Notes: a model not told the origin generated them from the letters alone. DNA of 27,165 nucleotides from a virus (IMGVR_UViG_3300047318_000256:1-27165), one strand, 5' to 3'; shown: positions 3,452 to 26,841, numbered from the stretch's first letter. Translations and numbers: made by a program.

Positions 3452-6400
3452 GTGTCGGGCAGTAATCAGAATCTATCTATCACTATTACCGGTGATGCGT
3501 CCGACGCGATGAGCGCCCTACAGCAGCTTGGGCAGCGTGTAGGACAGTCGGCCGACGATATGGCCCAGGCGGGCGAACAGGCCGGTTCCGGGGGCGGACG
3601 CGGCCTCCTAGCGGGCTTCAACGCCATTAACCCCGCAATCCTGGAGGGCGTGGGAAGCCTAGCCGCTAAGGCTGGGGAAGTCCTCATGGACGGCATAGCC
3701 CAGGCCATGGACCAGGAAAAGGTTATCGACAAGCTACAGGCTTCTTTGGGTGCCTCGGATGAGGTGGCTAAAAAGGCCGGTAAGGCGGCGGGAGACCTTT
3801 ACACCAATGGAGTTGTTGACACCTTCCAGGAGGGTGCGGACGCTATCGGACAGGTAATGTCTTCCGGTCTAGCCCCCCCGGACGCGACTAATGCTCAGCT
3901 AGAGGAAATCGCTACAAAGGTTGCTGACGTATCCCACACCTTTGACCAGGATCTAGGCGGCACCGCTAATGCGGTGGGTCAGATGATGCGTACAGGTATG
4001 GCGAAGAATGCTACGGAAGCGTTGGACATCATTACTAGGGGATTCCAGAATGTTGGACCCAACGGGGCCGATGACCTCCTAGACACCCTTAACGAGTATG
4101 GCGTCCAGTTCCAAGGTTTGGGCCTTGACGGTGAGGACGCTATGGGAATCATCGTCCAGGCTATGAAGGGTGGCGCTAGGAATACCGACCTAGCGGCGGA
4201 CGCTCTTAAGGAATTCCGCGTAAGGGCGATTAACCTTAATGACACGAACGCACAACAGGGTTTTAAGGCCCTGGGTCTTAACGCTAAAGATATGGCTAAG
4301 AAGGTTGCGGGTGGGGGTTCTTCCGCTAAGGAAGCGCTACAGCAGACAATCGACAAGCTGAAAAAGATTAAGGATCCTGCGAAGCAGGCGACAGTTTCAG
4401 CGATGCTATTCGGCACTCAGTCGGAGGATATGGCTAAGGCCCTTGCGGGCATTGATCCGTCTAAGGCTACCTCCGCCCTGGGTAAGGTCGGCGGTTCCGC
4501 AAAGAAGATGGGTGACACCCTAAGGGATAACGCGTCAACGCGTATCGACATCTTTAAGCGCAAGCTAGAGCAAGGTTTCGTCCAGGCTATCGGTAACTAT
4601 GTCCTGCCGTCCCTTAACAAGCTGACGATTTATCTTAGTCAGCATTTTGGGCCCAGCATTCATACCGCAACGGGTTACCTACAGGGCCTTTTCGATAAGG
4701 CCAAAAGTGGGGGTAGCTCTCTGGCCCCCCTCCAGTCGGGTTTCACTAATGCCATGAGCGGCGTAAAGACCGCCATGGGTGGCGCAGTGACTTTCGTCAA
4801 AACGCACTTCATGCCCTGGTTTAAGGAACAGCTACCGAAGATTAAGCCCGTAGTGTCCCAGGTCGCTAAGACCGTGGGTGCAGCTATGACGTTTATTGGC
4901 GACTACATAAAGACCCTGGTTAAGGTTGCTTCCTATATTTGGAAGAAATTTGGAGGCACCATAAAGTCGGTGATCTCCGGGGCTATTGACACTGTGGTTG
5001 GAATCGTAAAGGGACTCTTTAAGGTCCTACAGGGTCTTTTCCAGGTCGGTTCCGGAATCCTAACCGGTGACTGGAAAAAGGTTTGGACAGGCCTAAAGAA
5101 TATCGTGAGCGGCCTAAAGGGCGCTATCGTTTCCGCCGTAAAGGGTGTCTGGAATGGCATAACCAATTCCGCTAAGGGCATCATTAAGGGAATGGGTAGT
5201 ATCGGTAAAGATATTGTCATGGGCCTAGTTCACGGTATTACCTCCCTAGGTTCCTGGGTTGCTTCAAAGGTGAAGAACTTTGTCACTTCCTATATCCCGA
5301 ACAGTATTAAGAAGGTTCTGGGTATTGCGTCACCTTCAAAGGTGACAAAGGAATTGGGTAAGTGGGCCGGTATGGGCCTAGTGGTCGGTATGACTGGCAC
5401 GTCGGCAAAGGTTAAGGCCACCGCAAAGAAGCTAGCGGACGCTATCCATAAGGCCATTAAGGGATCTCACGGTAAGACTAAGAGCGCTCTGCAAAAGCTG
5501 AGCGACATTATCTCTAAGGACAATAAAAAGCTTTTGGGTCTAGCTAAGATGCGCGACAAAATCGCGGCGAAGCTAAAGGCGGCAGAAAAGAAACTGTCTG
5601 ATCTCAAAAAGGCTAAGTCTGACTATGCGGCCAACGTCCGCAGTAACATTCTTGGCTCTGCAAATATTACGTCCAACGATGATGGCTCGGTTGTCTCTAC
5701 CGGATCCATTCTGCAAAAGCTAAAGGACGCTGCGGTTAAGGCCCAGAAGTTTGCGCAGAATATTGCGGCAATGAAGGCTAAGGGTGTCTCTAGTGCCGTC
5801 ATTGACCAAATTGTGCAACAGGGTGTAGAGGGCGGTTCGGAGGCTGCGGCGGCCCTATCGTCCGGCACCCCCGAGCAGATTAAGGCCATTAATGACCAGC
5901 AAAAGAAGCTAGCAGATGCCGCCACTAAGGCGGGCAAGGTTTCCTCTAGCTCAATGTACGACACCGGCATTAATGCCGCTAAGGGTCTAGTTAAGGGTCT
6001 GAAAAAGCAGAAAAAGGCCATTGAAAAGACCATGTTGGACATAGCCCGGTCCATGGTTAAGGCTATTAAGAAGGCTTTGGGGATTAAGTCCCCTAGTCGG
6101 GTTATGGCCAAAATTGGTGACTGGACCGCCGAGGGCTTCATTAGAGCCCTAAATCGGCGCGTACGTGAGGCCGAGATAGCCGGTAGGGCTCTCGGCTGGG
6201 CAGTCAATCGCGGCGCCACTCACAGGACGGCCGGGTGGGATGCCCTTAAGGAGCATGCGCGATTGGGGGCCTCCACTGCCAACGCTAATGCGTCCGGGTC
6301 GGACGCGGTTTACGTCCGAGGCAACTCTAAGGAGACGCTACCGGCTGTTATTAACGTTCATGTCGCTGGGCACGTCACCACTGAAAGGGATCTAGCAAAG

Positions 6401-10859: not shown

Positions 10860-11132
10860 TTAGCGCGCGATGTGCTCTCGCATGATGATGACCGCGAAAC
10901 GGCCAATATCGTCTTTGGTGGGCTTGCTGGAGGCGGTGCCTCCAGTGTCCTGCTTCCAGGCCTCCGCCGCTTCCTGCGCCGCAGCCTCCGCCTTAGCTTC
11001 GGCGTCCTTGACCACTTCCCAAATCTCGTCCGGGGTCATTGCCTCCCAAACGGTGTCCCAGGCTTCCGCGAGGTTCCCCCACTGGGCGTAAGCGTAACCG
11101 CGAACGAATGCGATAACCGCGTCTCTATCCAT
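10860..11132 (-). CDS. Hypothetical protein, Ala/Glu-rich helical
   Basis: 90 residues, not recognised. An N-terminal part with aromatic residues (DRDAVIAFVRGYAYAQWGNL) is followed by an amphipathic Ala/Glu-rich helix (residues ~44-62) and a C-terminal helix (IGRFAVIIMREH). No Cys pairs, signal peptide or membrane segment. It is a single-gene cassette: its own promoter/operator (11183-11211), a stem-loop close to the mRNA start (11153-11173), and a terminator shared with the endolysin. An early or accessory role is only an inference from that shared control. Confidence 0.75.
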   Translation of the reverse strand: MDRDAVIAFVRGYAYAQWGNLAEAWDTVWEAMTPDEIWEVVKDAEAKAEAAAQEAAEAWKQDTGGTASSKPTKDDIGRFAVIIMREHIAR

Positions 11133-11182: not shown

Positions 11183-11211
11183 ATTGAAGCACACCCATGG
11201 CGGGTGTGCAA
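11183..11211 (-). promoter_or_regulatory. Promoter with palindromic operator for the gene at 10860
   Basis: Read leftward: -35 TTGCAC, 17-bp spacer, -10 TTCAAT. GCACACCC-N5-GGGTGTGC is a perfect eight-pair palindrome filling the spacer and most of the -35 box. The same design recurs at six or more places. Confidence 0.75.
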
Positions 11212-11247
11212 CCCCTAACGCGGGAAAAGAACTTTTCGAAAAACCGT

Positions 11248-11276
11248 TGCCATCAACCCCCCTCATCGGTTAGCTT
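11248..11276 (+). promoter_or_regulatory. Possible promoter for the secreted peptide gene
   Basis: TTGCCA and TTAGCT-like boxes about 17 bases apart upstream of the ATG at 11322. No operator palindrome here. Weaker than the neighbouring promoters. Confidence 0.35.
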
Positions 11277-11321
11277 TTGCTTGTTGCGTAATACCGCGCA
11301 TCACGTTAGGGAGGGGAAATC

Positions 11322-11537
11322 ATGAACGCTCGAATGATTACAGTTAGCGTGGCCCTGGGGGCTGCGCTGGTCGGCGGTATGACGATGGCCGGTACGGCTT
11401 CCGCTTGGGACCCGGCGCCGCCTAAGCCCCCGGTTTCGACTGCTACGCCTACCGTTCCCACGGATGTTCACTGGGTTAAGTGCCCGAGCAAGATGCGACG
11501 CACGGGCGTTGCCTGCTTCCGCATGTCGCACCGCTAA
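11322..11537 (+). CDS. Small secreted protein with signal peptide
   Basis: 71 residues; GGGAGGGG ribosome binding site before ATG. A classic Sec signal peptide: N-MNARMI, a hydrophobic core (TVSVALGAALVGGMTMAG) and a likely cut after TASA (about residue 28). The mature ~43 residues are Pro/Thr-rich with two cysteines (KCPSKM and ACFRMS) that could form a disulfide outside the cell. No lytic motif. It stands alone and opposite to its leftward neighbours, with its own terminator. Possible roles are changing the host surface or blocking superinfection, as known for some other small exported phage proteins; nothing here proves that. Confidence 0.78.
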   Translation: MNARMITVSVALGAALVGGMTMAGTASAWDPAPPKPPVSTATPTVPTDVHWVKCPSKMRRTGVACFRMSHR

Positions 11538-11549
11538 CCAGGAATGGAG

Positions 11550-11575
11550 AAAGGGCCCCCTCCTGGGGGCCCTTT
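11550..11575 (+). terminator. Terminator of the secreted peptide gene
   Basis: AAAGGGCCCCC and GGGGGCCCTTT around loop TCCT, eleven perfect pairs, followed by TCCCTTT. Confidence 0.8.
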
Positions 11576-11597
11576 CCCTTTGGGCTACAACGGGTTA

Positions 11598-11617
11598 GGG
11601 CCCCCTTTCGGGGGCCC
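11598..11617 (-). terminator. Terminator of the gene at 11624
   Basis: GGGCCCCC and GGGGGCCC around a four-base loop directly after the leftward stop codon. No T run follows. Same hairpin as 10833 and 14448. Confidence 0.65.
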
Positions 11618-11623
11618 CTGCCG

Positions 11624-11857
11624 TTAGATCCATTCGTAGAAACTCCGGTCCACGTTCTTACCGTCTACGTAAAGGTACGTCCACACGTAATCGGTTTCCC
11701 CGGAAACCCCCAGCTCTTGCGCGGAGTCTTCCTCGTACATGCGGTCATGCTCTTTCTGCGCCGCTTCCGGAGTATCAAAGTTCCTAATGTCGGACTCCGT
11801 GATTTCCCCGTCCTCCGTCTGGTGGAAAATTTCGATCCGGTTAGGCTTGCTCTCCAT
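11624..11857 (-). CDS. Hypothetical acidic protein
   Basis: 77 residues, not recognised. Strongly acidic (QTEDGEITESDIRNFDTPEA, then HDRMYEEDSAQEL) with an aromatic C-terminus (YVWTYLYVDGKNVDRSFYEW). ATG behind AGCGGAAGGAAAG, which contains the CCAGCGGAA leader motif shared with neighbours. A compact acidic fold could be a DNA mimic, but this is a guess from composition. Own promoter, leader stem-loop and terminator make it a one-gene unit. Confidence 0.72.
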   Translation of the reverse strand: MESKPNRIEIFHQTEDGEITESDIRNFDTPEAAQKEHDRMYEEDSAQELGVSGETDYVWTYLYVDGKNVDRSFYEWI

Positions 11858-11876
11858 TAGGCTTTCCTTCCGCTGG

Positions 11877-11900
11877 GCCCTGGGGCCCTACCCCCTGGGC
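11877..11900 (-). promoter_or_regulatory. 5' leader stem-loop of the gene at 11624
   Basis: GCCC/GGGC and GGGG/CCCC pairs with one internal mismatch and a six-base loop, nine bases after the -10 box. Confidence 0.45.
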
Positions 11901-11909
11901 GATGAGCTA

Positions 11910-11938
11910 AGTAAAGCACACCGTTAGAGGATTAGCAA
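11910..11938 (-). promoter_or_regulatory. Promoter for the gene at 11624
   Basis: -35 TTGCTA, 17 bp, -10 TTTACT. Only the GCACACC half of the usual operator palindrome is present. The -35 box overlaps the last bases of the preceding terminator. Confidence 0.6.
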
Positions 11939-11962
11939 ACCCCCCGCGTTAGCGGGGGGTTT
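11937..11962 (-). terminator. Terminator of the gene at 11979
   Basis: AAACCCCCCGC and GCGGGGGGTTT around a four-base loop (GTTA), eleven perfect pairs. It ends in the -35 box of the next promoter. Confidence 0.75.
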
Positions 11963-11978
11963 GGGTTAGCCGTTAGGC

Positions 11979-12275
11979 CTAAACGTCGTAAGCCTCGCGG
12001 TCAATCATCGGGGGAACCATCCCCCGGGACCACATGGACCGGGCGGAGAGTTCCGCACAGTCGAGACAAAGGGGCTGGCGATTCCGCCGCGCACGGTCCA
12101 ATTCATCCTGCGTGTACTCCCGAGAACGAGCCACACCGCCCACAACCTGAACGTCTACCGGCAAACCGGTTTCCGGCAGAATCGGGACCCCCATTACACG
12201 GTCCGCGTTCTCCCTTTTGAAGGTAACCACACCGTGACAGTTAGCGCACCTTGCAACGATTAGTTCGTGACCCAT
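11979..12275 (-). CDS. Small zinc-ribbon-like protein
   Basis: 98 residues. Start placed at the ATG behind AGCGGAAAGAGG; the open frame extends 44 codons further but that part covers the leader and the promoter at 12328-12356. Two Cys pairs, 'RCANCHG' near the N-terminus and 'LCLDCAE' in the C-terminal half, suggest a four-Cys zinc site. An Arg-rich helix follows residue ~60 (TQDELDRARRNRQ). Could be a transcription or nucleic-acid-binding factor; no family recognised. Confidence 0.75.
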   Translation of the reverse strand: MGHELIVARCANCHGVVTFKRENADRVMGVPILPETGLPVDVQVVGGVARSREYTQDELDRARRNRQPLCLDCAELSARSMWSRGMVPPMIDREAYDV

Positions 12276-12301
12276 CGTCCTAATCCTCTTTCCGCTGGGA
12301 T

Positions 12302-12320
12302 TCGCCCCTAACCGGGGCGA
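12302..12320 (-). promoter_or_regulatory. 5' leader stem-loop of the gene at 11979
   Basis: TCGCCCC and GGGGCGA around loop GGTTA, seven perfect pairs, seven bases after the -10 box. Confidence 0.55.
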
Positions 12321-12327
12321 CGCATTG

Positions 12328-12356
12328 ATTAAACCACACGGGTTAGCCCGTGGCAA
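12328..12356 (-). promoter_or_regulatory. Promoter with variant operator for the gene at 11979
   Basis: -35 TTGCCA, 17 bp, -10 TTTAAT. The spacer is palindromic but differs from the others: CCACGGG-CTAA-CCCGTGTGG. It may belong to the same regulator or mark divergence. Confidence 0.65.
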
Positions 12357-12360
12357 CAAG

Positions 12361-12375
12361 TAAGGAGCCTCCTTA
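12361..12375 (+). promoter_or_regulatory. Ribosome binding site inside an inverted repeat
   Basis: TAAGGAG and CTCCTTA flank one C directly before the ATG at 12376, so the AGGAG can pair with the bases next to the start codon. This could limit translation of the membrane protein gene. Confidence 0.5.
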
Positions 12376-12594
12376 ATGTCTTTCCTTGACCGTAACCGTG
12401 CCCGCATTTACGCGGTCGTGGCAACCGTCCTCCCCCTACTAGCGGTGTACGTGCACAACCTCCCCGCAGGGGCCGTCCTGGGCGTCCTGGCGGCCGTCCT
12501 GGGCCTCAATGTGGACTCTCAGACTGTCCCGCTTACCGAGCATGACTCTAAGGTCCTGGAGGCCCTTTACACGGACGTCCCGACGGCCGAGTAA
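12376..12594 (+). CDS. Small two-TM membrane protein (possible holin)
   Basis: 72 residues. A short basic N-terminus (SFLDRNRARI) is followed by two hydrophobic segments, about residues 11-27 (YAVVATVLPLLAVYVHN) and 31-46 (AGAVLGVLAAVLGLN), then an acidic C-terminus (TEHDSKVLEALYTDVPTAE). Size and membrane layout fit a class II holin that would free the CHAP endolysin. It is not next to the endolysin, and many other small phage membrane proteins look alike. Its AGGAG lies in an inverted repeat. It is read divergently from the zinc-ribbon gene and ends in a TAAG repeat and a strong terminator. Confidence 0.72.
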   Translation: MSFLDRNRARIYAVVATVLPLLAVYVHNLPAGAVLGVLAAVLGLNVDSQTVPLTEHDSKVLEALYTDVPTAE

Positions 12595-12610
12595 GTAAGT
12601 AAGTAACTAA
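12591..12610 (+). repeat. TAAG tetranucleotide repeat, copy 3
   Basis: Four GTAA units begin inside the stop codon of the two-TM protein. Related to copies at 25, 6478 and 19061. Confidence 0.65.
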
Positions 12611-12627
12611 CCCCTAGACACAAAAGA

Positions 12628-12653
12628 GCCCCCGCCTTTCGGCGGGGGCCTTT
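12628..12653. terminator. Bidirectional terminator between the membrane protein and lsr2
   Basis: GCCCCCGCC and GGCGGGGGC around loop TTTC, nine perfect pairs. TTT follows on the plus strand, and CTCTTTTGTG on the minus strand, so it can serve both convergent genes. Confidence 0.82.
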
Positions 12654-12668
12654 CGTCGTTTCCGGAGG

Positions 12669-13079
12669 TCAGTCAATGTCGTTGGCGTTGATGCCGTGAG
12701 CGCTGGCGTAAGCCTCCATGATGTTCTGCGGGATGCGGCCCCGGTCTCCCAGGTCGTAACCGCCCTCACCGATCGCCCAGGCCCGAACCATGGGCTTACT
12801 GTGGCCGGATCCAGTGCGGCGGGGCCCCGCCGTGCGGGTGCGGATAGGGGCCGTGTTGCGGGTGCGGGCGGGGGTGGCCACCGCCTCTTCGTCAAGCTGC
12901 GCGCAAGCGATGTACTTAGCGAACCTTTCCCGGAAACCGTCCGCCTGTTCCTTAGACGTTTCCAGCTTAAACGCGACCCCATCCAGAGAGAAACGGACCG
13001 TGTCCGACTCCGACTCGTCGATAATGTCGCCGGTAACGTCGTCGGTGATTTCAACAAGTTCGATAATCTTACGGGCCAT
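12669..13079 (-). CDS. lsr2: Lsr2-like nucleoid-associated protein (xenogeneic silencer)
   Basis: 136 residues. Lsr2 is an actinobacterial H-NS-like protein that coats AT-rich DNA and silences it. The N-terminal domain (residues ~1-60) has the 'FSLDGVAFKLETSKEQADGF' pattern of the Lsr2 dimerisation domain. A Thr/Arg/Ala-rich linker (about 68-95) follows. The C-terminal domain 'VRAWAIGEGGYDLGDRGRIP' then 'IMEAYASAHG' carries the RGR minor-groove motif (Arg113-Gly-Arg115). A phage copy could act on host silencing, compete with host Lsr2 by mixed dimers, or organise phage DNA. It has its own promoter, a hairpin in the leader and a terminator; the leader has the CCAGCGGAAA motif. Confidence 0.9.
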   Translation of the reverse strand: MARKIIELVEITDDVTGDIIDESESDTVRFSLDGVAFKLETSKEQADGFRERFAKYIACAQLDEEAVATPARTRNTAPIRTRTAGPRRTGSGHSKPMVRAWAIGEGGYDLGDRGRIPQNIMEAYASAHGINANDID

Positions 13080-13117
13080 TTTCGGTTCCTCTTCCCTGGT
13101 TTCCGCTGGGGTTTCAG

Positions 13118-13140
13118 GAGGGGCCCTTTTCGGGCCCCTC
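13118..13140 (-). promoter_or_regulatory. Hairpin in the lsr2 leader
   Basis: GAGGGGCCC and GGGCCCCTC around a five-base loop, nine perfect pairs, lying between the predicted promoter and the gene. It may stabilise the mRNA 5' end, attenuate transcription, or also end transcripts from the upstream gene. Confidence 0.6.
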
Positions 13141-13153
13141 CCTCGTGCTTACG

Positions 13154-13183
13154 ATTATGCCCTAAGGCTCGGGGTTAGCGCAA
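13154..13183 (-). promoter_or_regulatory. Promoter for lsr2
   Basis: -35 TTGCGC, 18 bp, -10 CATAAT. The GCACACCC palindrome is absent, so lsr2 may be outside the main operator group. TAACCCC/TTAGGG words fill the spacer. Confidence 0.6.
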
Positions 13184-13197
13184 CCCCGTTAGGGGAT

Positions 13198-14367
13198 TTA
13201 TTCGGCCCCGAGAATCTCGCCGATTCGGGCGGTCTTGTCGTCCCAGTAAAGGTAAGCCTGGGACTCGTCGTCGCCGCCCTTAGGGCGGTTAGCCTTAGCC
13301 AACTGACCCCAGTTCTCCCAAGCCTTCCACGGGTCGGCAACGTTGAACTCACGGGCGGCACGGTCCTCCGGGGATTCCTCCTCCGTGTCGTCGTCCTGGT
13401 CCGCCTCGGCGTCCTCCGTCTCCGGGGCCTCCTCCGGGGCCTCTACGGCCTCCGTGGCGGCCTCCGTGCCCTCCGTGTCCGTGTCGGCGTCCTGGTTGGC
13501 CTCCAGGGCCTCCGTCATGCGAGTCATTTCCGCTTCCACCTCGGGGGCGCAGTTGGCGCAAGGCTTAATGTGCTCCGCCTCCTCCAGGGTAATGAACGGG
13601 TAACCCGCAAAGTCGCGGCCCGCCGCGCGCTTAACGGTGTTGCACTTTTCCGCATTCTCCGTGAAGTGAACGGCCTGTCGATTGGCCGGAACGAAAAGCT
13701 TAGAGTCGGTCACGATGGGACCCTTTCCGCTGGATTGTGTTTCAGACTTTAGCGGGTTAGCGGCCTCCGGGTCAACCCAGCCGACCGTTTCCCGAAACCA
13801 TTCGAGGGCTACGGAGTAATCGGCTCCGTCGATTTCTTCCCCGGTCAATTCCGTTTGGTCACCCAACCACTTACGGGCGCCCTCTGCATACTCCTCTACG
13901 GAACCCATTTGGAATCGCTCCCCAGCCTGGGTATGCATGCTGGTTTCCGTAGCCAGGGCCCGCATTACCGCGCGGGTTTCCGGGCTTTCGCCGGTAACAT
14001 CCTCGACCATTTCGTTTCCCTCCGCTGGGGTGTGGTTAGAGGCTACAGGGTTAGCGACCTCCGTGTCTACGTCCCCCCCGAGTTCAGCCATAATGGCTTT
14101 GTGGGTTATCGCGACCGCTTCCGTAATCCGCTCGCGGTGTTGATGGTCGGCGGACCGGTAACCGTCCCCCAGGCTTTCGAACGCGTTAGCCAACATCACG
14201 TTCTCACGCTTGTTGTCGCCGTAGTAGTTGAGGGCTACAGGCTTAGAGTCTTTGAAGATGCGGATACGCCACTGACTCTCGCGGCACTCGACGTAGTAAG
14301 AGTGAGTCTCCCCGTAAGCGTGATACTGGCCCGCTTCAATCCGCTTCCACTTGAGTACCGTAACCAC
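13198..14367 (-). CDS. Three-part protein of unknown function, apparently built from three adjoining genes
   Basis: 389 residues from a GTG start. Part 1 (~1-103) starts VTVLKWKRIEAGQYHAYGET and is unrecognised. Part 2 (120-~200) starts MVEDVTGESP. Part 3 (219-end) has a Cys site (EKCNTV then KPCANCA), a long acidic low-complexity run (about 300-345) and an aromatic end (DPWKAWENWGQLAKAN). The two linkers translate DNA like the intergenic leaders of neighbouring genes: GCTAACCC words and CCAGCGGA-type ribosome binding sites directly before an in-frame ATG (14010) and GTG (13713). So three separate or nested products are possible. Promoter/operator at 14397-14425; the first start sits behind AGGGGAGGGG. 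Confidence 0.7.
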   Translation of the reverse strand: MVTVLKWKRIEAGQYHAYGETHSYYVECRESQWRIRIFKDSKPVALNYYGDNKRENVMLANAFESLGDGYRSADHQHRERITEAVAITHKAIMAELGGDVDTEVANPVASNHTPAEGNEMVEDVTGESPETRAVMRALATETSMHTQAGERFQMGSVEEYAEGARKWLGDQTELTGEEIDGADYSVALEWFRETVGWVDPEAANPLKSETQSSGKGPIVTDSKLFVPANRQAVHFTENAEKCNTVKRAAGRDFAGYPFITLEEAEHIKPCANCAPEVEAEMTRMTEALEANQDADTDTEGTEAATEAVEAPEEAPETEDAEADQDDDTEEESPEDRAAREFNVADPWKAWENWGQLAKANRPKGGDDESQAYLYWDDKTARIGEILGAE

Positions 14368-14396
14368 GGTTAGCCCCTCCCCTTGTCGTTGTCCTA

Positions 14397-14425
14397 ATTA
14401 AAGCACACCCGTCGGGGGTGTGCAA
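14397..14425 (-). promoter_or_regulatory. Promoter with palindromic operator for the gene at 13198
   Basis: -35 TTGCAC, 17 bp, -10 TTTAAT. GCACACCC-N5-GGGTGTGC is a perfect palindrome over spacer and -35 box. Confidence 0.78.
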
Positions 14426-14447
14426 CAGTCCTGGGGGAAAAAGATTA

Positions 14448-14467
14448 GGGCCCCCTTTCGGGGGCCC
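14448..14467 (-). terminator. Terminator of the gene at 14475
   Basis: GGGCCCCC and GGGGGCCC around a four-base loop, followed on the minus strand by TAATCTTTTTCC, a good T run. Confidence 0.8.
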
Positions 14468-14474
14468 CGGCCTC

Positions 14475-14837
14475 TTAGGAGGCCCAGCGGTTACCGTGGT
14501 TAGCGCCACCGCACTGACAATCACATGCAGCGCTCTTAGCGTTAGTGCAACGCCCGTCGCACACCTTAGAGGGGTTGTACGTGCCCTTAAGGTGCTTACC
14601 GGCCATGGGGCCGTGCTCCGAGCAGGAGGCGCCGTTAGCGGCGTACAGGGCCCGGTACGCGGTGCGCTCCGCGTCATTGCTGGTAAACATCCAGGAGTGA
14701 ATATCGTGCACGTCGCCCCACAGGGGCTCAAACGTGCCGGTAAGGAGGGGCTTACCGTGACGGGCGTTAAGGTCGGTAACCGCGTGAGTCTTGCAGCCCT
14801 TAGTCCGGCACTTCCAGAAGACTCGGATGGTTTCCAT
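14475..14837 (-). CDS. Cys/His-rich protein with CDCQCGG motif
   Basis: 120 residues; ATG behind AGCGGAAAGAGG. The N-terminus has 'WKCRTKGCKTH', and the C-terminus 'SKVCDGRCTNAKSAACDCQC' followed by GGANHG. The Cys/His groups suggest two metal sites, and a C-x-C-x-C-G-G...H-G end is shared by a group of small actinophage proteins of unknown function (from memory, not searched). Promoter at 14887-14915, leader hairpin at 14858-14876 with ATTAGGG loop, terminator at 14448: a complete one-gene cassette. Role unknown; nucleic-acid or protein binding is likely. Confidence 0.75.
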   Translation of the reverse strand: METIRVFWKCRTKGCKTHAVTDLNARHGKPLLTGTFEPLWGDVHDIHSWMFTSNDAERTAYRALYAANGASCSEHGPMAGKHLKGTYNPSKVCDGRCTNAKSAACDCQCGGANHGNRWAS

Positions 14838-14857
14838 TGCCTTACCTCTTTCCGCTG

Positions 14858-14876
14858 GGGCCGCCCTAATCGGCCC
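14858..14876 (-). promoter_or_regulatory. 5' leader stem-loop with ATTAGGG loop, gene at 14475
   Basis: GGGCCG and CGGCCC around loop ATTAGGG (minus strand), ten bases after the -10 box. The loop is identical to that at 17153, and ATTAGGGC loops occur at 16701 and 19196. Confidence 0.65.
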
Positions 14877-14886
14877 GACACAGAGA

Positions 14887-14915
14887 ACATTACAGGGTTA
14901 GCGGGGTTAGTGCAA
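14887..14915 (-). promoter_or_regulatory. Promoter for the gene at 14475
   Basis: -35 TTGCAC, 17 bp, -10 TAATGT. The spacer CTAACCCCGCTAACCCTG-like sequence closely matches the promoter at 17240-17268. No GCACACCC palindrome. Confidence 0.7.
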
Positions 14916-14942
14916 CCCCCGGGGCGGGTTAGACCCCGGGGG
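14916..14942 (-). terminator. Hairpin after the gene at 14953
   Basis: CCCCCGGGG and CCCCGGGGG around a nine-base loop, placed between the stop codon and the next promoter. No T run. Confidence 0.55.
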
Positions 14943-14952
14943 GTTAGGCGGG

Positions 14953-15429
14953 TTACTTACCCCAGTTGTCGCAGCGACGCTGCCAGTAGGCGCGGGCCTG
15001 GGGGGTGTTGCCATGCTGGGCCAGTTCCAGGAAGTTGGCCGGGACGGGGCCAACCTCGCAGGTGTGCTTGTCCAGGTTGGCAAGCTTGCCGCATTCCTGG
15101 CAGTACTCCACGGGCACGGCGGGGAGTACCGACTTACGAACCTCCGGGGCCTCCGTCTCCTGCGGGGCCTCCGTGGCGGTCTCCAGGGCTTCCAGGGCCG
15201 CTACTGCGGCGGCCTCACACTTCCGGCAGACCTTGCGCCCACCGCGCTTACGGGCGGTCTCCAGGGCCTCCTTAAGGTCCTCAATCTCCTTACCGGAGGT
15301 AGCGAGGTTGTAAGACCGAGAGAGGACCGGGCAGGCGCTAAGCGCGTAGTTGAATTCGCTTCCCTTGCTGCGCTCCGCGATACCGGCGATGTGGTTCGTG
15401 GTCCGGTTGTACTTGATTGCGTAACCCAT
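14953..15429 (-). CDS. Cys-pair protein with acidic linker
   Basis: 158 residues. Start set at the ATG after AAAGGGGTTAGGG; the open frame runs 18 codons further, but that part overlaps the promoter. The N-terminal part (GYAIKYNRTTNHIAGIAERS) is followed by a helix, then 'RKVCRKCEAAA', an Ala/Glu/Thr-rich acidic stretch (about residues 95-115), 'EYCQECGKLANLDKHTC' and an aromatic C-terminus with 'QARAYWQRRCDNWGK'. The CxxC pairs plus a HxC suggest zinc binding. Not recognised; possibly a nucleic-acid-binding factor. Own promoter/operator; no clear leader hairpin. Confidence 0.75.
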   Translation of the reverse strand: MGYAIKYNRTTNHIAGIAERSKGSEFNYALSACPVLSRSYNLATSGKEIEDLKEALETARKRGGRKVCRKCEAAAVAALEALETATEAPQETEAPEVRKSVLPAVPVEYCQECGKLANLDKHTCEVGPVPANFLELAQHGNTPQARAYWQRRCDNWGK

Positions 15430-15471
15430 GATCCCTAACCCCTTTGCTAACCCGTTCCCTGCGATGTCTTT

Positions 15472-15500
15472 ATTATGGCACACCCGTTAGGGGTGTGCAA
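15472..15500 (-). promoter_or_regulatory. Promoter with palindromic operator for the gene at 14953
   Basis: -35 TTGCAC, 17 bp, -10 CATAAT, with GCACACCC-CTAAC-GGGTGTGC (minus strand) as a perfect palindrome. The clearest member of the set. Confidence 0.82.
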
Positions 15501-15554
15501 CCCCCGTTAGGGAAGTTAGTTTGAGCCGTTAGGCGGTAACCCCTAATGTCCGGA

Positions 15555-15568
15555 TTTATCGTGATAAA
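15555..15568. promoter_or_regulatory. AT-rich dyad, copy 1
   Basis: TTTATC-GT-GATAAA palindrome in the 270-base gap between genes at 14953 and 15699. The right half recurs at 17653. Possible protein-binding site. Confidence 0.45.
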
Positions 15569-15602
15569 AGTCGCGCAGGGGTATACATCCGGTTAGACCG
15601 TT

Positions 15603-15624
15603 TTATGATGATTTATCATCATAA
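15603..15624. promoter_or_regulatory. AT-rich dyad, copy 2
   Basis: TTATGATGA and TCATCATAA flank TTTA: nine perfect pairs, strongly AT-rich in a GC-rich genome. About 100-150 bases upstream of the promoter at 15472. Candidate operator, Lsr2 target or origin element. Confidence 0.55.
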
Positions 15625-15675
15625 GTCATCCCATAGTAGACATTAGCGACATGTCCGATTAGAGGCAAAAGGAAA

Positions 15676-15693
15676 GGGGCCCTTTCGGGCCCC
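15676..15693 (-). terminator. Terminator of the gene at 15699
   Basis: GGGGCCC and GGGCCCC around a GAAA loop (minus strand), followed by TTTCCTTTTGCC. Confidence 0.78.
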
Positions 15694-15698
15694 CTGGG

Positions 15699-15950
15699 TT
15701 AGCTCTCTTCCGACTTTCCGAGCATCGAGTAACCGCGCCGTCCGGGCTTGTGCTTGGCTTCCTCCGCCCGCATCCAAGCATCGGCGTCCAGTTCCAGCTT
15801 AAGGTACGGGGCGCCCTGTACGCGGGCCCCCCAGGGGCTCCGGGCCTCCGTGGCGGTCCACGGGCCCTTAGCGCCGTAGCCGTCCGAACAGATGATCTTC
15901 CAGGAGTAGGTTCCGTTAGCCTCTTTGCGGGTCTTAAGCTTGGTGTTCAT
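15699..15950 (-). CDS. Hypothetical small protein
   Basis: 83 residues, not recognised. A basic N-terminus (NTKLKTRKEANGTYSWKIIC) suggests a small beta-rich domain; the middle has 'GPWTATEARSPWGARVQGAP', and the C-terminus is Lys/Arg-rich (EEAKHKPGRRGYSMLGKSEE). One Cys only, no membrane segment. ATG behind GGGGAGGGAAAC. One-gene cassette with promoter at 15994-16023 and terminator at 15676; AT-rich dyads lie on both sides. Confidence 0.72.
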   Translation of the reverse strand: MNTKLKTRKEANGTYSWKIICSDGYGAKGPWTATEARSPWGARVQGAPYLKLELDADAWMRAEEAKHKPGRRGYSMLGKSEES

Positions 15951-15965
15951 TTTGTTTCCCTCCCC

Positions 15966-15980
15966 GGGGGCCCTTCCCCC
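15966..15980 (-). promoter_or_regulatory. 5' leader stem-loop of the gene at 15699
   Basis: GGGGG and CCCCC around a five-base loop, thirteen bases after the -10 box. Shorter than the others. Confidence 0.35.
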
Positions 15981-15993
15981 TTTCGATGTCTTA

Positions 15994-16023
15994 ATTATGG
16001 CACACCCTAACCCGCTAACGCAA
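15994..16023 (-). promoter_or_regulatory. Promoter for the gene at 15699
   Basis: -35 TTGCGT, 18 bp, -10 CATAAT. Only the GGGTGTGC half-site of the operator is present, next to GTTAG words. Confidence 0.6.
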
Positions 16024-16386
16024 CCCCTAACCTCAAGTCTTTTCCCGGTTAGGCATGTCTAATATTTCGCCCAACGGGCACCATGAGATGATAAATCATC
16101 ACAAATCGGGCATTAGCACCTAACCCCCTCGTGCCAGCACTCCTTAGGCTTAGGCTCATGGTGCGAGTGTGGGGGATCGTTAGCAGGCCTGTGGCACCTA
16201 AAGCCGTAGGCCCAGCCTCCCCTTTTACTTCCGTCCTTTAGTGTTCGGATTAGCCATTTGGACACTAGGAATCGGCACCTGTCATCAGTCATGCCGCAGT
16301 CAACGCGGGTAGACCCTGGGCCTATTCCAGGGCCCCTCTACGACTCTCCTGCGCCTGGTCCGGCCTCCCCCCGTGCCCAGACACGC
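16024..16386. other. Non-coding stretch without a recognisable gene
   Basis: About 360 bases with no ORF that has a ribosome binding site. It holds an AT-rich dyad (16087-16100), TAGTGT/ACACTA arms at about 16240-16268, a GTGCCA/TGGCAC pair of arms spanning 16131-16196, and CCCTGG/CCAGGG at about 16316-16334. No tRNA T-arm or cloverleaf was found. Candidates are a structured RNA, a replication origin or a decayed gene. Confidence 0.5.
16087..16100. promoter_or_regulatory. AT-rich dyad, copy 3
   Basis: GATGAT-AA-ATCATC, six perfect pairs, sharing the GATGAT core with copies at 15603 and 17640. Upstream of the promoter at 15994. Confidence 0.5.
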
Positions 16387-16412
16387 CCAGGGGGCCCGTA
16401 GGGGCCCCCTGG
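16387..16412 (-). terminator. Terminator of the gene at 16423
   Basis: CCAGGGGGCCC and GGGCCCCCTGG around a four-base loop, eleven perfect pairs; no T run. Confidence 0.7.
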
Positions 16413-16422
16413 GTTCGGGAGG

Positions 16423-16677
16423 CTAGTCCTCCCAGATGTATTCCTCAATGATCATGTCGCTGTCAACGCTGCGGACAATCTCCGCCACGGTGTCCGCGTG
16501 AAGACCCGGGAACCGGTTCACCTGTACCGGCATAACCGCCGCGAGAGCGAGGGACGGGTAAGACCGGGTAATGACAACCCCGGTGGGGAGGGTCAGAACC
16601 TCAATCCGTCGGACGAGAGAGCAGGCCATCATGTAAAAGGTGTAGTCCAGGATTCCCTTAGACAGGTTAACTGCCAT
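16423..16677 (-). CDS. Hypothetical small protein
   Basis: 84 residues, not recognised. A fairly hydrophobic protein: 'ILDYTFYMMACSLVRRIEVL', then 'SYPSLALAAVMPVQVNRFPG', and an acidic C-terminus (SDMIIEEYIWED). It has no clear membrane helix long enough to call. ATG preceded by AAGGGGTAAGAA. One-gene cassette with operator promoter (16738-16766), leader stem-loop with ATTAGGGC loop and terminator. Confidence 0.72.
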   Translation of the reverse strand: MAVNLSKGILDYTFYMMACSLVRRIEVLTLPTGVVITRSYPSLALAAVMPVQVNRFPGLHADTVAEIVRSVDSDMIIEEYIWED

Positions 16678-16700
16678 TTCTTACCCCTTAGGGGTTAGTG

Positions 16701-16726
16701 GAGGGACCGGCCCTAATCGGTCCCTC
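16701..16726 (-). promoter_or_regulatory. 5' leader stem-loop with ATTAGGGC loop, gene at 16423
   Basis: GAGGGACCG and CGGTCCCTC, nine perfect pairs, loop ATTAGGGC (minus strand), eleven bases after the -10 box. The stem differs in sequence from those at 14858 and 17153 but the loop is kept. Confidence 0.65.
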
Positions 16727-16737
16727 GCGATGTCTCT

Positions 16738-16766
16738 ATTAGAGCACACACCTAAGGGGTGTGCAA
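16738..16766 (-). promoter_or_regulatory. Promoter with palindromic operator for the gene at 16423
   Basis: -35 TTGCAC, 17 bp, -10 TCTAAT. Operator GCACACAC-N5-GGGTGTGC, one mismatch. Confidence 0.78.
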
Positions 16767-16788
16767 CACCTAACCAGGGAAACGCCAA

Positions 16789-16808
16789 AGGGCCCCCGAA
16801 GGGGCCCT
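16789..16808 (-). terminator. Terminator of the gene at 16825
   Basis: AGGGCCCC and GGGGCCCT around a four-base loop (TTCG on the minus strand), followed by TTGGCGTTTCC. Confidence 0.7.
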
Positions 16809-16824
16809 AAGGGGTTAGGTGCGC

Positions 16825-17130
16825 CTAGCAGGCGTAAGCCATTTCCCGCCACCCGTCTACCCGCTCACGGCTAGAGGGGACCGCATAGAACGGCACGTTA
16901 CGAGTCTCCTCCTCATCCCGGTAGTAGTAAACGACGTGCTCAACAATGACGGAGTCCGGCTCAAAGCAACCCGACTCGCGCATGTCCCAGGCAGTGTCTA
17001 TGCCCTCGTAAACGTCGCTGTAGCGACGGGAGTAAGAGCCATCCTCGCTAAACACGGTGAAGTCACCTTCACCCGTCATGCCCAGGGCGGTAGCGCGGGC
17101 AGTGACCTCGATGTAGGCGAGAGCGAGCAT
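16825..17130 (-). CDS. Hypothetical acidic protein
   Basis: 101 residues, not recognised. N-terminus LALAYIEVTARATALGMTGE is followed by 'FTVFSEDGSYSRRYSDVYEG', an acidic middle, then 'VEHVVYYYRDEEETRNVPFY'. Two Cys at distant positions. The start ATG follows AAGGGGTCCCA. Complete cassette with operator promoter (17186-17214), ATTAGGG leader stem-loop (17153-17173) and terminator (16789). Confidence 0.72.
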   Translation of the reverse strand: MLALAYIEVTARATALGMTGEGDFTVFSEDGSYSRRYSDVYEGIDTAWDMRESGCFEPDSVIVEHVVYYYRDEEETRNVPFYAVPSSRERVDGWREMAYAC

Positions 17131-17152
17131 TGGGACCCCTTAGGGTTAGTGG

Positions 17153-17173
17153 GGGGCCGCCCTAATCGGCCCC
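17153..17173 (-). promoter_or_regulatory. 5' leader stem-loop with ATTAGGG loop, gene at 16825
   Basis: GGGGCCG and CGGCCCC around loop ATTAGGG (minus strand), twelve bases after the -10 box. Confidence 0.65.
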
Positions 17174-17185
17174 GCCGTTGGCTCT

Positions 17186-17214
17186 ATTAAAGCACACCCC
17201 CACGGTGTGTGCAA
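17186..17214 (-). promoter_or_regulatory. Promoter with palindromic operator for the gene at 16825
   Basis: -35 TTGCAC, 17 bp, -10 TTTAAT. Operator arms GCACACCC and GTGTGTGC (minus strand reads GCACACAC-N5-GGGTGTGC), one mismatch. Confidence 0.78.
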
Positions 17215-17239
17215 CCTCCGATTAGGGACGGGTTAGGGG

Positions 17240-17268
17240 TTGCGCCTAACGCGCTAACCCTGTAATGT
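17240..17268 (+). promoter_or_regulatory. Promoter for the gene at 17330
   Basis: -35 TTGCGC, 17 bp, -10 TAATGT. Spacer and -10 box match the promoter of the gene at 14475 (CGCTAACCCTG then TAATGTTC), in opposite genome orientation. No GCACACCC palindrome. Confidence 0.65.
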
Positions 17269-17329
17269 TCTTTCTGTCGGGAGGGAAACCTAACCGGCAC
17301 AACAGTTAACTCAATAGGGAGCGCTAACA

Positions 17330-17587
17330 ATGGCCGCTAAGATGATCCTGGCTTTTGTCACCATGTGGGCCGGTACTCAGAACCTGTCTGTGGACGGGTG
17401 CCCCGGGTTTAACCGGGTGGAGGTTACGCCGGAAGACCTGGAAATCCTGGGAATGGACACCATGGTTAAGGCTCACCGGTTCGATAACGTGGACCGGGTT
17501 ACGGTTGACTGTCCGGAATGGACGGAGACATGGACTCGGGTTAGCATCCCGCTTCCGGGGTGGACGATGGACCGTAAGGAACGCTAA
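17330..17587 (+). CDS. Hypothetical small protein
   Basis: 85 residues, not recognised. N-terminus AAKMILAFVTMWAGTQNLSV, two Cys (GCPGF and DCPEW), a Trp-rich C-terminal half (EWTETWTRVSIPLPGWTMDR). The compact beta-like pattern suggests a small binding domain. ATG preceded by AGGGAGCG. Rightward orphan among leftward genes, with its own promoter (17240-17268) and terminator (17593-17614). Confidence 0.75.
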   Translation: MAAKMILAFVTMWAGTQNLSVDGCPGFNRVEVTPEDLEILGMDTMVKAHRFDNVDRVTVDCPEWTETWTRVSIPLPGWTMDRKER

Positions 17588-17592
17588 AGATT

Positions 17593-17614
17593 AGGGCCCC
17601 CGAAAGGGGGCCCT
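17593..17614 (+). terminator. Terminator of the gene at 17330
   Basis: AGGGCCCCC and GGGGGCCCT around loop GAAA, followed by TTCTTTATG. Confidence 0.82.
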
Positions 17615-17639
17615 TTCTTTATGTCCGATTAGGGTTAGC

Positions 17640-17661
17640 TTATGATGATATATCGTGATAA
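17640..17661. promoter_or_regulatory. AT-rich dyad, copy 4 (imperfect)
   Basis: TTATGATGA-TATA-TCGTGATAA: left arm equals that of copy 2, right arm equals the half of copy 1. Two mismatches in nine pairs. It lies between convergent genes, so it is less likely to be a promoter operator. Confidence 0.45.
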
Positions 17662-17678
17662 ATCCCGGCACAGGCTAA

Positions 17679-17694
17679 GGCCCCCGGAGGGGCC
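17679..17694 (-). terminator. Hairpin after the DUF3987-like gene
   Basis: GGCCCC and GGGGCC around a four-base loop, next to the TAG stop at 17702. Six pairs only. Confidence 0.5.
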
Positions 17695-17701
17695 CTAACC
17701 G

Positions 17702-18997
17702 CTAAACGTATCCGTCCGCGCCCTCTTCACCTACCCAGTAGAACACCGTAGACGGCCGTCCGACGTCGTTACGCCTTAGTTTAGAGTCGACGGGCAACCC
17801 TTCCAACATGGAATCAATCTCGGGGCGAGGCTTACCCTTACCCACAATGTCCCGGATTTCAGAAATGCTTAGACCATCATCCCCAGCCTCATACAGGGCA
17901 CGCGCTAGCGGGTTAGAGGCAGGCGGGGCCTCATTACGGGCGTAACTCTGCTTAAGGGTGTAGAGGGTGCTTTCCATGCTGTACTTAAACAGCGCGTTAG
18001 CGGCCTTAAGGTCCTTAACCCCAATCTGCTGCCTACCGTCCGCGATAGCGTACAGGGCCGCCAACCTAAGCGTGTACGGGGCCCTACGGGCAGTGAATTG
18101 GGCTAGAGTCTCGTCCTCCGGGTTCTCGTCCTGGATTAGCTGATACAGGTAATCCTTCCAGTAATCCCCGGCGTCCTTAGTGCGGACAATCAACGTATCG
18201 CCCTCACCGCGCACGTGTGCGGCATTAATGGCAAGTTCCCTTGCACATGCCTTAAGTTCCTTTTCGTCCACCATTCCGCCGTCGGGAAGGCTTTGCACCT
18301 GATGGACGTGAAGGATCAAATACCGGTTATAGCTTCCACCGGCAAGTTCCTTTGCCCGCATCATGTCCCGGAATTCCCCGGGACTAATGTGCCCCAAAAC
18401 CGCAATGTGCGGACGAGTGGCAGTCATGCTGTTTCTCTTCACGCGCGTCTTAAGGTCGTCTCCGTCCCAGGCTTGACGGAGGACGCCGGAAAGGGAACCG
18501 CTACGCGCCGAACGGGTCATAAGGTTTGCGTATTCAGTTTCGATTACGAAACGTCGTTGATCCCCAACTAGAGCATCGCGGTCAAGGGTGGCCCCCACTA
18601 GGGCCCCCAGGGAATCCGCCATATCCAAATCCTCTTCGGAGGGATCCTCGACTTCCTTAATGAGTCCCTCACCCGACGAGATACCGCTAACGGTGCACAT
18701 GCGGTAAAACTCCGCGTCTACCATTCTAAGGAGGTGTTTAGCGGCCCCCGTGGCGGAACCCTTACGGCCGTCCGAGGTGCGGCCCAGCAAAAGGGCCCAG
18801 GCCAATGGGGGGTGATTGTCCAGGGCGGAAATCTTTACCCGGGCCTGGGGGCCCACTAGGGCGGAATAACCGACCAGGAGGCTTCCCAGGATGCCTACGG
18901 GGTCCCCTTCGGTTCCGGGGGCGAGAGCCTTAACGGTGCGCCCCATGAGGCCCATGTAGACAGCATCGTCCGGTACGGGTCGGTCGCTGGTGATCAT
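17702..18997 (-). CDS. DUF3987-like ATPase, probable replication protein
   Basis: 431 residues. Read as a RecA/DnaB-fold P-loop protein of the DUF3987 type, found with primases in phages and mobile elements and presumed to be a replicative helicase-like factor. Evidence: a Walker A-like 'LLLGRTSDGRKGSATG' at about residues 70-84, 'RRFVIETEYANLM' (acidic Walker B-like), 'GHISPGEF', and 'GGSYNRYLILHVHQVQSLPD', which matches the NR(F/Y)L...LP.GG signature of the family. The C-terminal ~70 residues look like a winged helix (DDGLSISEIRDIVGKGKPRP). The leader contains a TTGACA promoter (19068-19096) and a 16-base perfect palindrome. Confidence 0.7.
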   Translation of the reverse strand: MITSDRPVPDDAVYMGLMGRTVKALAPGTEGDPVGILGSLLVGYSALVGPQARVKISALDNHPPLAWALLLGRTSDGRKGSATGAAKHLLRMVDAEFYRMCTVSGISSGEGLIKEVEDPSEEDLDMADSLGALVGATLDRDALVGDQRRFVIETEYANLMTRSARSGSLSGVLRQAWDGDDLKTRVKRNSMTATRPHIAVLGHISPGEFRDMMRAKELAGGSYNRYLILHVHQVQSLPDGGMVDEKELKACARELAINAAHVRGEGDTLIVRTKDAGDYWKDYLYQLIQDENPEDETLAQFTARRAPYTLRLAALYAIADGRQQIGVKDLKAANALFKYSMESTLYTLKQSYARNEAPPASNPLARALYEAGDDGLSISEIRDIVGKGKPRPEIDSMLEGLPVDSKLRRNDVGRPSTVFYWVGEEGADGYV

Positions 18998-19041
18998 GTA
19001 CTGATCCCCCCTGGTGAGTATGTATGTATGTAGGTTACCGG

Positions 19042-19057
19042 CACCCCCGCGGGGGTG
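19042..19057 (-). promoter_or_regulatory. Perfect GC palindrome in the leader of the gene at 17702
   Basis: CACCCCCG and CGGGGGTG with no loop base, between (GTAT)3 repeats and the TAAG repeat. Possible attenuator, mRNA 5' structure or protein site. Confidence 0.5.
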
Positions 19058-19060
19058 ACT

Positions 19061-19089
19061 GGATAGATACTTACTTACTTACCTACGCC
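19061..19089 (-). repeat. TAAG tetranucleotide repeat, copy 4
   Basis: On the minus strand GTAGGTAAGTAAGTAAG then TATCTATCC, almost the same as the copy at 6478 on the plus strand. It overlaps the -10 region of the promoter at 19068-19096. A related GTAT array is at 19018-19033. Confidence 0.7.
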
Positions 19090-19096
19090 CTGTCAA
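19068..19096 (-). promoter_or_regulatory. TTGACA promoter for the gene at 17702
   Basis: -35 TTGACA (exact consensus), 17 bp, -10 TAAGTA, the latter made of TAAG repeats. No GCACACCC operator: control differs from the cassette genes. Confidence 0.5.
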
Positions 19097-19151
19097 GTTC
19101 CTTACAGGCTTTGGGAGTTGGTGCCGTCCGCAGTAACCCTCAGGTCATCCC

Positions 19152-19180
19152 TTGCACACCCCCAGCGGGTGTGCTCTAAT
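19152..19180 (+). promoter_or_regulatory. Promoter with palindromic operator for the gene at 19250
   Basis: -35 TTGCAC, 17 bp, -10 TCTAAT, operator GCACACCC-N5-GGGTGTGC (perfect). The only rightward gene with the full operator design. Confidence 0.82.
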
Positions 19181-19249: not shown

Positions 19250-19459
19250 ATGGCTAAGGAATCCATCTTCACCCGTCCCTCTAAGCGTGAGGAGGTTATT
19301 TCTCGGCAACCATCAGAGCCTAAGGCTTTCGAGATTGCGGAGGAATGGGCCGGTAAGATTGTGAAACTTGGTGTGACCGACCGGTTCGGCGTCAAAATGA
19401 CTAAGGCAGGCCGGTATCACTGGGACGTGATTTTGGTTGACCGCTCCATTGCTGCATAA
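19250..19459 (+). CDS. Hypothetical small basic protein
   Basis: 69 residues, not recognised. Mixed-charge: 'FTRPSKREEVISRQPSEPKA', then 'FEIAEEWAGKIVKLGVTDRF' and 'KAGRYHWDVILVD'. No Cys, membrane segment or signal peptide. ATG about eleven bases after AGGAAG. It is expressed rightward, away from the DUF3987-like gene, from the operator promoter with an ATTAGGGC leader hairpin, so it belongs to the cassette regulon. Confidence 0.75.
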   Translation: MAKESIFTRPSKREEVISRQPSEPKAFEIAEEWAGKIVKLGVTDRFGVKMTKAGRYHWDVILVDRSIAA

Positions 19460-26634: not shown

Positions 26635-26841
26635 TTAATTCTCCTCATACTCGTACGTAAGGCCCGTGTGGTCCACGGAGATAAGCGGGTTATCGAGAAT
26701 CCCGGTAACGTCCTCCACCTCACCGATAAAGGCACGGAGGCTATCCAGGGAAATGGTCTGCTTCTGCCCGCCAAATCCGTCTAGCGGTTGCTCTGTATAA
26801 GTCGCCTTAGCGTGAACCTTGAAAACGATATTGTTAGCCAT
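26635..26841 (-). CDS. Hypothetical protein
   Basis: 68 residues, not recognised. Beta-strand-like: 'NNIVFKVHAKATYTEQPLDG', then 'ISLDSLRAFIGEVEDV' and acidic C-terminus (GLTYEYEEN). AGGAGG lies upstream inside the end of the endonuclease gene, which overlaps it by eight bases. Confidence 0.7.
   Translation of the reverse strand: MANNIVFKVHAKATYTEQPLDGFGGQKQTISLDSLRAFIGEVEDVTGILDNPLISVDHTGLTYEYEEN

Follow-up and report, generated by a model that had tools for sequence, protein, structure and literature searches.

Why do six single-gene cassettes in one stretch of viral DNA carry the same palindrome within their promoters, and which protein reads it? The stretch is IMGVR_UViG_3300047318_000256, an IMG/VR fragment of 27,165 bp that was analysed in its entirety and is called the window here, with positions counted from its first letter. 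The element in question is the palindrome GCACACCC-N5-GGGTGTGC. Its features suggest, with good though not full confidence, that the copies are dispersed operators of a phage immunity repressor, a helix-turn-helix (HTH) protein of 141-143 amino acids (aa), that would silence early genes in the lysogen.

Six palindromes embedded in promoters

The window contains six copies of the palindrome, four exact (starts at 11189, 14403, 15478 and 19154) and two with one mismatch (16744 and 17192). The chance expectation is 0.22 copies with up to three mismatches allowed, and none of 100 shuffled sequences reached six. Read toward its gene, each promoter has the form TTGCAC-[ACCC N5 GGGTGTGC]-TTTAAT-like with a spacer of 17 bp in all six cases. 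The 21-bp palindrome therefore corresponds to the whole spacer plus four bases of the -35 box. The adjoining -10 boxes are TTTAAT, TTCAAT, TCTAAT or CATAAT, and the operators lie 36-76 bp 5' of their respective genes. A first-pass annotation of this DNA had already described six palindromic promoters at these genes, two of them with one mismatch, and had the palindrome covering the spacer and most of the -35 box; all six were located and the extent of the overlap agrees.

11183..11211, minus strand: promoter with operator 1; -35 TTGCAC 11206-11211, palindrome 11189-11209, -10 TTCAAT 11183-11188; gene 10860-11132(-)
14397..14425, minus strand: promoter with operator 2; palindrome 14403-14423, -10 TTTAAT 14397-14402; gene 13198-14367(-)
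15472..15500, minus strand: promoter with operator 3; palindrome 15478-15498, -10 CATAAT 15472-15477; gene 14953-15429(-)
16738..16766, minus strand: promoter with operator 4 (one mismatch); palindrome 16744-16764, -10 TCTAAT; gene 16423-16677(-)
17186..17214, minus strand: promoter with operator 5 (one mismatch); palindrome 17192-17212, -10 TTTAAT; gene 16825-17130(-)
19152..19180, plus strand: promoter with operator 6; -35 TTGCAC 19152-19157, palindrome 19154-19174, -10 TCTAAT 19175-19180; gene 19250-19459(+)

None of the products of the six cassette genes has a family match:

10860..11132, minus strand: cassette gene, 90 aa
13198..14367, minus strand: cassette gene, 389 aa, acidic
14953..15429, minus strand: cassette gene, 158 aa (start corrected)
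16423..16677, minus strand: cassette gene, 84 aa
16825..17130, minus strand: cassette gene, 101 aa
19250..19459, plus strand: cassette gene, 69 aa

The start of gene 14953 is the ATG at 15429 and not the GTG at 15483, which falls inside the promoter; the orthologue in the related record G010 begins at the equivalent point. A consensus promoter scanner was uninformative here (4 promoters in the window, 2.5 expected). Interpretation of the palindrome as an RNA hairpin or terminator was dropped because the spacer precedes the point where transcription would start and the element is oriented as the promoter boxes are.

Distribution in one phage group

A scan of 2.9 million viral contigs for the exact palindrome returned several multi-copy contigs. 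A scan that required the promoter together with the palindrome gave 12 IMG/VR contigs, all belonging to one phage group, and this combined pattern had no match in 84,980 bacterial and archaeal genomes (one per species). Isolated copies of the palindrome in contigs that seem unrelated (L005, L009, L012, L014-L016, L020 and L021) were taken as chance occurrences and dropped. Together the window and eight related records carry 85 sites with at most two mismatches, of which 65 are unique; at this threshold 16 fall in G004 (48 kb) and 15 in G011 (45 kb), both near-complete genomes. Since some records are near duplicates (G001/G012 and G004/G013), they represent approximately seven independent lineages. 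Relatives were also sampled by protein so as not to select on the palindrome: every close relative found with two window proteins has it, while it was not found in the loci read from relatives whose primase is 39-47% identical. Among cultured phages the window has no megablast relative, and distant blastn yields a single 86-bp match.

The members of the group are uncultured temperate viruses of actinobacteria, temperate because they encode integrases: a tyrosine integrase in G011, with a similar one in G002, and different serine types in G004 and G006. The integrase type thus switches between these four close relatives; the operators are constant, as is the candidate repressor described below wherever the contig covers it. 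At each end of the G004 record (1-1418 and 45656-46487) there is a copy of the DnaN-like and winged-HTH genes, and the copies differ in sequence; this points to circular permutation of the genome and to an assembly that combines strain variants. The palindrome can serve as a specific marker for this uncultured group.

Conservation of the arms and two forms of the site

Orthologous promoters were compared in 75 pairings from 21 groups. Over the 16 arm positions the rate of difference is 3.9%, a figure somewhat lowered by the choice of sites on their arm match (at most two mismatches). The corresponding values are 44% for N5, 15% for the -10 box, 37% for the upstream flank and 24% for the downstream flank. 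The arms vary less than the -10 box, so selection acts on them separately. GCACAC and GTGTGC show little or no variation among 41 strict promoter-type sites, whereas the three bases at the centre are nearly random. Genes having a site in any lineage keep it in 65 of 75 orthologues, and operator 2 is kept in all seven copies of its gene.

A variant form, CACACCC-N3-GGGTGTG, has its dyad centre moved by 1 bp, with ACACCC and GGGTGT separated by 3 bp. Among the 65 unique sites, 23 have the exact N3 form, 19 the perfect N5 form and 23 neither exactly. The two one-mismatch sites of the window belong to a common variant type that is often identical to the N3 form. The first-pass proposal of an operator shared by many promoters is supported by this conservation over seven lineages, and the loss of the palindromes from related phages, which it had raised as the outcome that would speak against it, did not occur, 12 contigs keeping promoter and palindrome together.

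A candidate repressor in the relatives

No obvious repressor gene had been recognised in the window by the first-pass annotation, and none was found here; the relatives point to a place about 4 kb past its end, so that the contig stops before reaching it. A gene for a protein of 141-143 aa is present in G004, G006, G010 and G011, and in G010 it lies about 4 kb past the orthologue of window gene 26635-26841. The protein has sub-threshold HTH matches in Pfam, and its HTH is well modelled (residues 11-50, predicted local distance difference test score, pLDDT, about 80). The gene carries a palindrome of its own, 83-86 bp 5' of the start codon and followed by TACGGT or TAGGGT, a -10 box of TAnnnT type.

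The gene order repressor, hypothetical protein, exonuclease is common to the relatives and to the Streptomyces phages Amela, Endor2 and Hank144, in which the repressors are annotated as immunity repressors; in Ibantik and Ponzi the immunity repressor likewise adjoins a Cas4/RecB-like exonuclease. A position beside this exonuclease and upstream of the DnaB, primase and ribonucleotide reductase genes was found in G004, G010 and G011, as in Amela, Ibantik and RGL3. Profile comparison of the candidate with the Streptomyces phage repressors gave a probability of 96 (E 4.5e-9, 105 columns), against 0.2 for a control DNA-binding family. The Streptomyces profile in turn matches the cluster A immunity repressor 7r6r (E 2.8e-14), the link from candidate to 7r6r being one of two steps via the Streptomyces proteins. 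On this basis the C-terminal domain of the candidate appears to be a relative of the 'stoperator' domain with which cluster A repressors bind DNA. The candidate has no tblastn match in cultured phages and no relative in the species genomes, and a direct PDB search with the clade profile retrieved only ribosomal proteins (E 0.5-0.7).

Proposed mechanism and alternatives

From the sites, their placement in promoters, their conservation and the homology and synteny of the candidate we infer binding, dimerisation, repression and a role in lysogeny. The repressor gene of the window phage would sit just past the right end of the contig. Its product would probably occupy GCACACCC-N5-GGGTGTGC as a dimer or as two head-to-head monomers and, lying over the 17-bp spacer and four -35 bases, would exclude the host RNA polymerase. 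In a lysogen silencing would extend to the early one-gene cassettes, to the early-left operon with its two sites and to the G011 integrase promoter, and the repressor may limit its own synthesis through the palindrome in its own promoter. Each cassette would be a unit with its own promoter and operator, often with a terminator, so that a newly acquired gene could come under lysogenic control at once.

Several observations weigh against this immunity-repressor interpretation. The repressor gene itself is not in the window. The full-length model of the candidate is poor (mean pLDDT 60), and Foldseek with this weak model found no PDB fold at E 0.001. Compared with three Ibantik-type repressors alone only the HTH aligns (probability 9.6), and with three Amela-type repressors alone only the C-terminal part (44.6). 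Other DNA-binding proteins are present (a 72-aa winged HTH, an Lsr2-like and a sigma-like protein). Finally, L5-type repressors bind asymmetric sites as monomers (PMC9283540), so that binding as a dimer would be a departure from the behaviour of the homologues.

Some sites may also act in part as stoperators or elongation roadblocks, as in L5 and R4. This is compatible with repression at promoters and is a possibility that we hold tentatively. The family of the candidate includes stoperator-domain proteins, and in five lineages a copy of the palindrome that lacks clear boxes stands between a terminator-like element with a T-run and the DnaB-like helicase gene. This operator is a candidate for a true stoperator. 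Against such a role, most sites are in promoters, lone intergenic half-sites are few, and half-sites outside palindromes do not exceed expectation.

G004 6861, G011 4159, G006 15929, G010 2971, G001 21969: conserved operator without clear boxes before the DnaB-like gene

Another phage regulator, such as the 72-aa winged-HTH protein or else a Cro-like or antirepressor protein, might bind the palindrome and time lytic expression rather than lysogeny. The gene of the 72-aa protein (HTH_39, sub-threshold) lies downstream of a DnaN-like gene in the early-left operon, which has two palindromes at its start. However, only the 143-aa gene combines a palindrome in its own promoter with immunity-repressor synteny and a profile link, and G004 and G011 have no second dispersed repeat family left for a repressor, which makes such a regulator improbable. 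Phages do recruit host regulators, and a host transcription factor could in principle wire the cassettes to a host signal; this is very unlikely, since the promoter-plus-palindrome pattern (the only one counted) matches 0 of the 84,980 species genomes and the number and spread of the sites resemble the repressor site arrays of related phages. A MerR-type activator that rescues a poor promoter from a dyad between the two boxes can hardly be credited, because MerR-type spacers measure 19-20 bp whereas the cassette spacers are of 17 bp with good boxes and need no realignment; in the integrase and early-left variants the spacer measures 18-19 bp, and activation there may occur.

Other promoters and genes of the window

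Two promoters of the window retain a half-site and two others share boxes of a single class with no operator:

11916..11922, minus strand: half-site GGTGTGC beside -10 TTTACT; promoter of 11624-11857(-), whose G004 orthologue has a full operator
16000..16006, minus strand: half-site GGTGTGC beside -10 CATAAT; promoter of 15699-15950(-)
14887..14915, minus strand: operator-less promoter TTGCAC-17-TAATGT; gene 14475-14837(-)
17240..17268, plus strand: operator-less promoter TTGCGC-17-TAATGT, same class as that of gene 14475; gene 17330-17587(+)

Orthologues of gene 15699 have the full operator in G001, G004 and G011 and the half-site in the window and G010. Gene 14475 has a full operator in its G004 and G011 orthologues; the window copy has TTGCAC-TAACCCCGCTAACCCTG-TAATGT as its promoter instead. 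The second class, TTGCRC-17-TAATGT (14887-14915(-) and 17240-17268(+)), serves two genes, carries CTAAC and GCTAACCCTG in the spacer and is conserved in G010. What looked like an excess of TTAG/CTAA across the whole genome was modest. Boxes with no operator are found in the promoters of genes 14475, 17330, 12669 and 11979. Counted with the half-site and operator-less promoters, the earlier figure of at least eleven promoters holds, as does the division into two or three control classes (full operator, half-site, no operator).

Another palindrome, CACGGG-TTAG-CCCGTG (12337-12352), lies in the spacer of the leftward 11979 promoter and just 5' of the 12376(+) ribosome-binding site. The two arms co-vary (GCGGGA/TCCCGC in G001 and G011, a similar change in G004), so that palindromy is kept and sequence is not; it is a candidate second operator or leader hairpin. 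Palindromes of GTGAYC-GRTCAC type adjoin the operators of the early-left operon and of a gene for a 57-67-aa protein (G004 44310-44330 and 44720-44740; G011 11450-11480; G002 3940-4300) and are possibly the site of a second regulator. The DUF3987/primase-like gene 17702-18997 has a TTGACA-like promoter at about 19020-19100 with GTAA-type tandem repeats and no operator, in all lineages with the gene. Other genes of the window encode tail proteins, an endolysin, an Lsr2-like protein, dCMP deaminase, ThyX, ribonucleotide reductase, a sigma-like protein and a primase.

Repeats in phages with homologous repressors

Asymmetric repeats were recovered de novo from Amela (TGTGACAGTGTGA, 21 sites), RGL3 (ACTTGACACTAGA, 25 sites, all 25 following gene direction) and Ibantik (TGTCTCGTGACAAC, 13 sites). 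The uncultured outgroups L076, L077 and L080, which have a homologous repressor, carry the repeats CTTGACAATGG, CTTGACAGTGT and CTTGACAACTAA. Read on the opposite strand, their TTGACA core corresponds to the TGTCAA of published stoperators; the stoperator of cluster CA is TGTCTATTGTCAAG (PMC13313380). These asymmetric CTTGACA-type repeats of the outgroups are probably undescribed stoperator specificities. Repeats in phages with homologous repressors are thus stoperator-like arrays, and no perfect palindrome with arms of at least 6 bp recurs in Ibantik, Success or Ponzi. In the clade of the window (G004 and G011) no dispersed repeat was found except the palindrome and terminator-like stems. The most economical interpretation is that the palindrome took the place of an asymmetric site. 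We lean slightly toward the wider view that one clade of the L5/R4 family moved from monomers on asymmetric stoperators to a symmetric complex on spacer palindromes (with N5 and N3 spacings), its early region becoming a set of self-regulated, swappable one-gene units.

Comparison with known systems

Dispersed repressor sites are known in actinophages, as the stoperators of L5 and R4 (PMC9283540, PMC10276819). Cluster A phages (L5, TipsytheTRex) and the Streptomyces R4/BD phages share with the present group the same genome plan and, by the two-step profile link, a related repressor. The relatives have 13-25 dispersed sites, compared with 15-16 in G011 and G004. Many identical dispersed sites and, in the relatives of the window, a repressor with an HTH and a stoperator-type C-terminal part are common to both. 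The L5/R4 sites, however, are asymmetric, of 13-14 bp and in one direction relative to transcription, whereas those described here are 21-bp palindromes in promoter spacers. The first-pass comparison with cluster A stoperators, which noted a different layout, can be made more precise: the nearest system is the repressor-stoperator family of cluster A and R4, to which the candidate is related, although the present sites are symmetric.

In phiC31 many identical palindromes are likewise spread over one temperate actinophage genome. Its conserved inverted repeats (CIRs), recovered de novo as 15 copies of TACTCACGTGAGTA, serve as the operators of its repressor. The CIR sequence differs from the present one and phiC31 has no GCACACCC sites; conversely, no recurrent palindrome of TACTCACGTGAGTA type occurs in G000, G004 or G011, and the phiC31 c-type repressor (683 aa) shows no similarity to the candidate. 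Mycobacteriophage BPs also combines a small repressor with palindromic operators at several sites per genome, but these are 12-bp palindromes arranged as paired half-sites in only a handful of places (PMC4557955). The start-associated sequences (SAS) and extended SAS (ESAS) of cluster K precede many small genes of the non-structural arm, as here; the SAS are asymmetric, of 13 bp and 3-7 bp from start codons at the ribosome-binding site, whereas the present sites lie 36-80 bp upstream, in promoters (PMC3203893).

An L5-type repressor relative together with symmetric, spacer-embedded operators for single-gene cassettes was not found in the literature searched, which covered few subscription journals. 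The best reading of the sequence data is that of an L5/R4-type immunity system whose dispersed sites would have turned into symmetric, promoter-embedded operators. Homologous repressors reading asymmetric and symmetric sites offer a natural comparison and thereby a route to the evolution of immunity specificity and even of binding symmetry, and operators borne by cassettes show how an incoming gene can be under repression from the outset.

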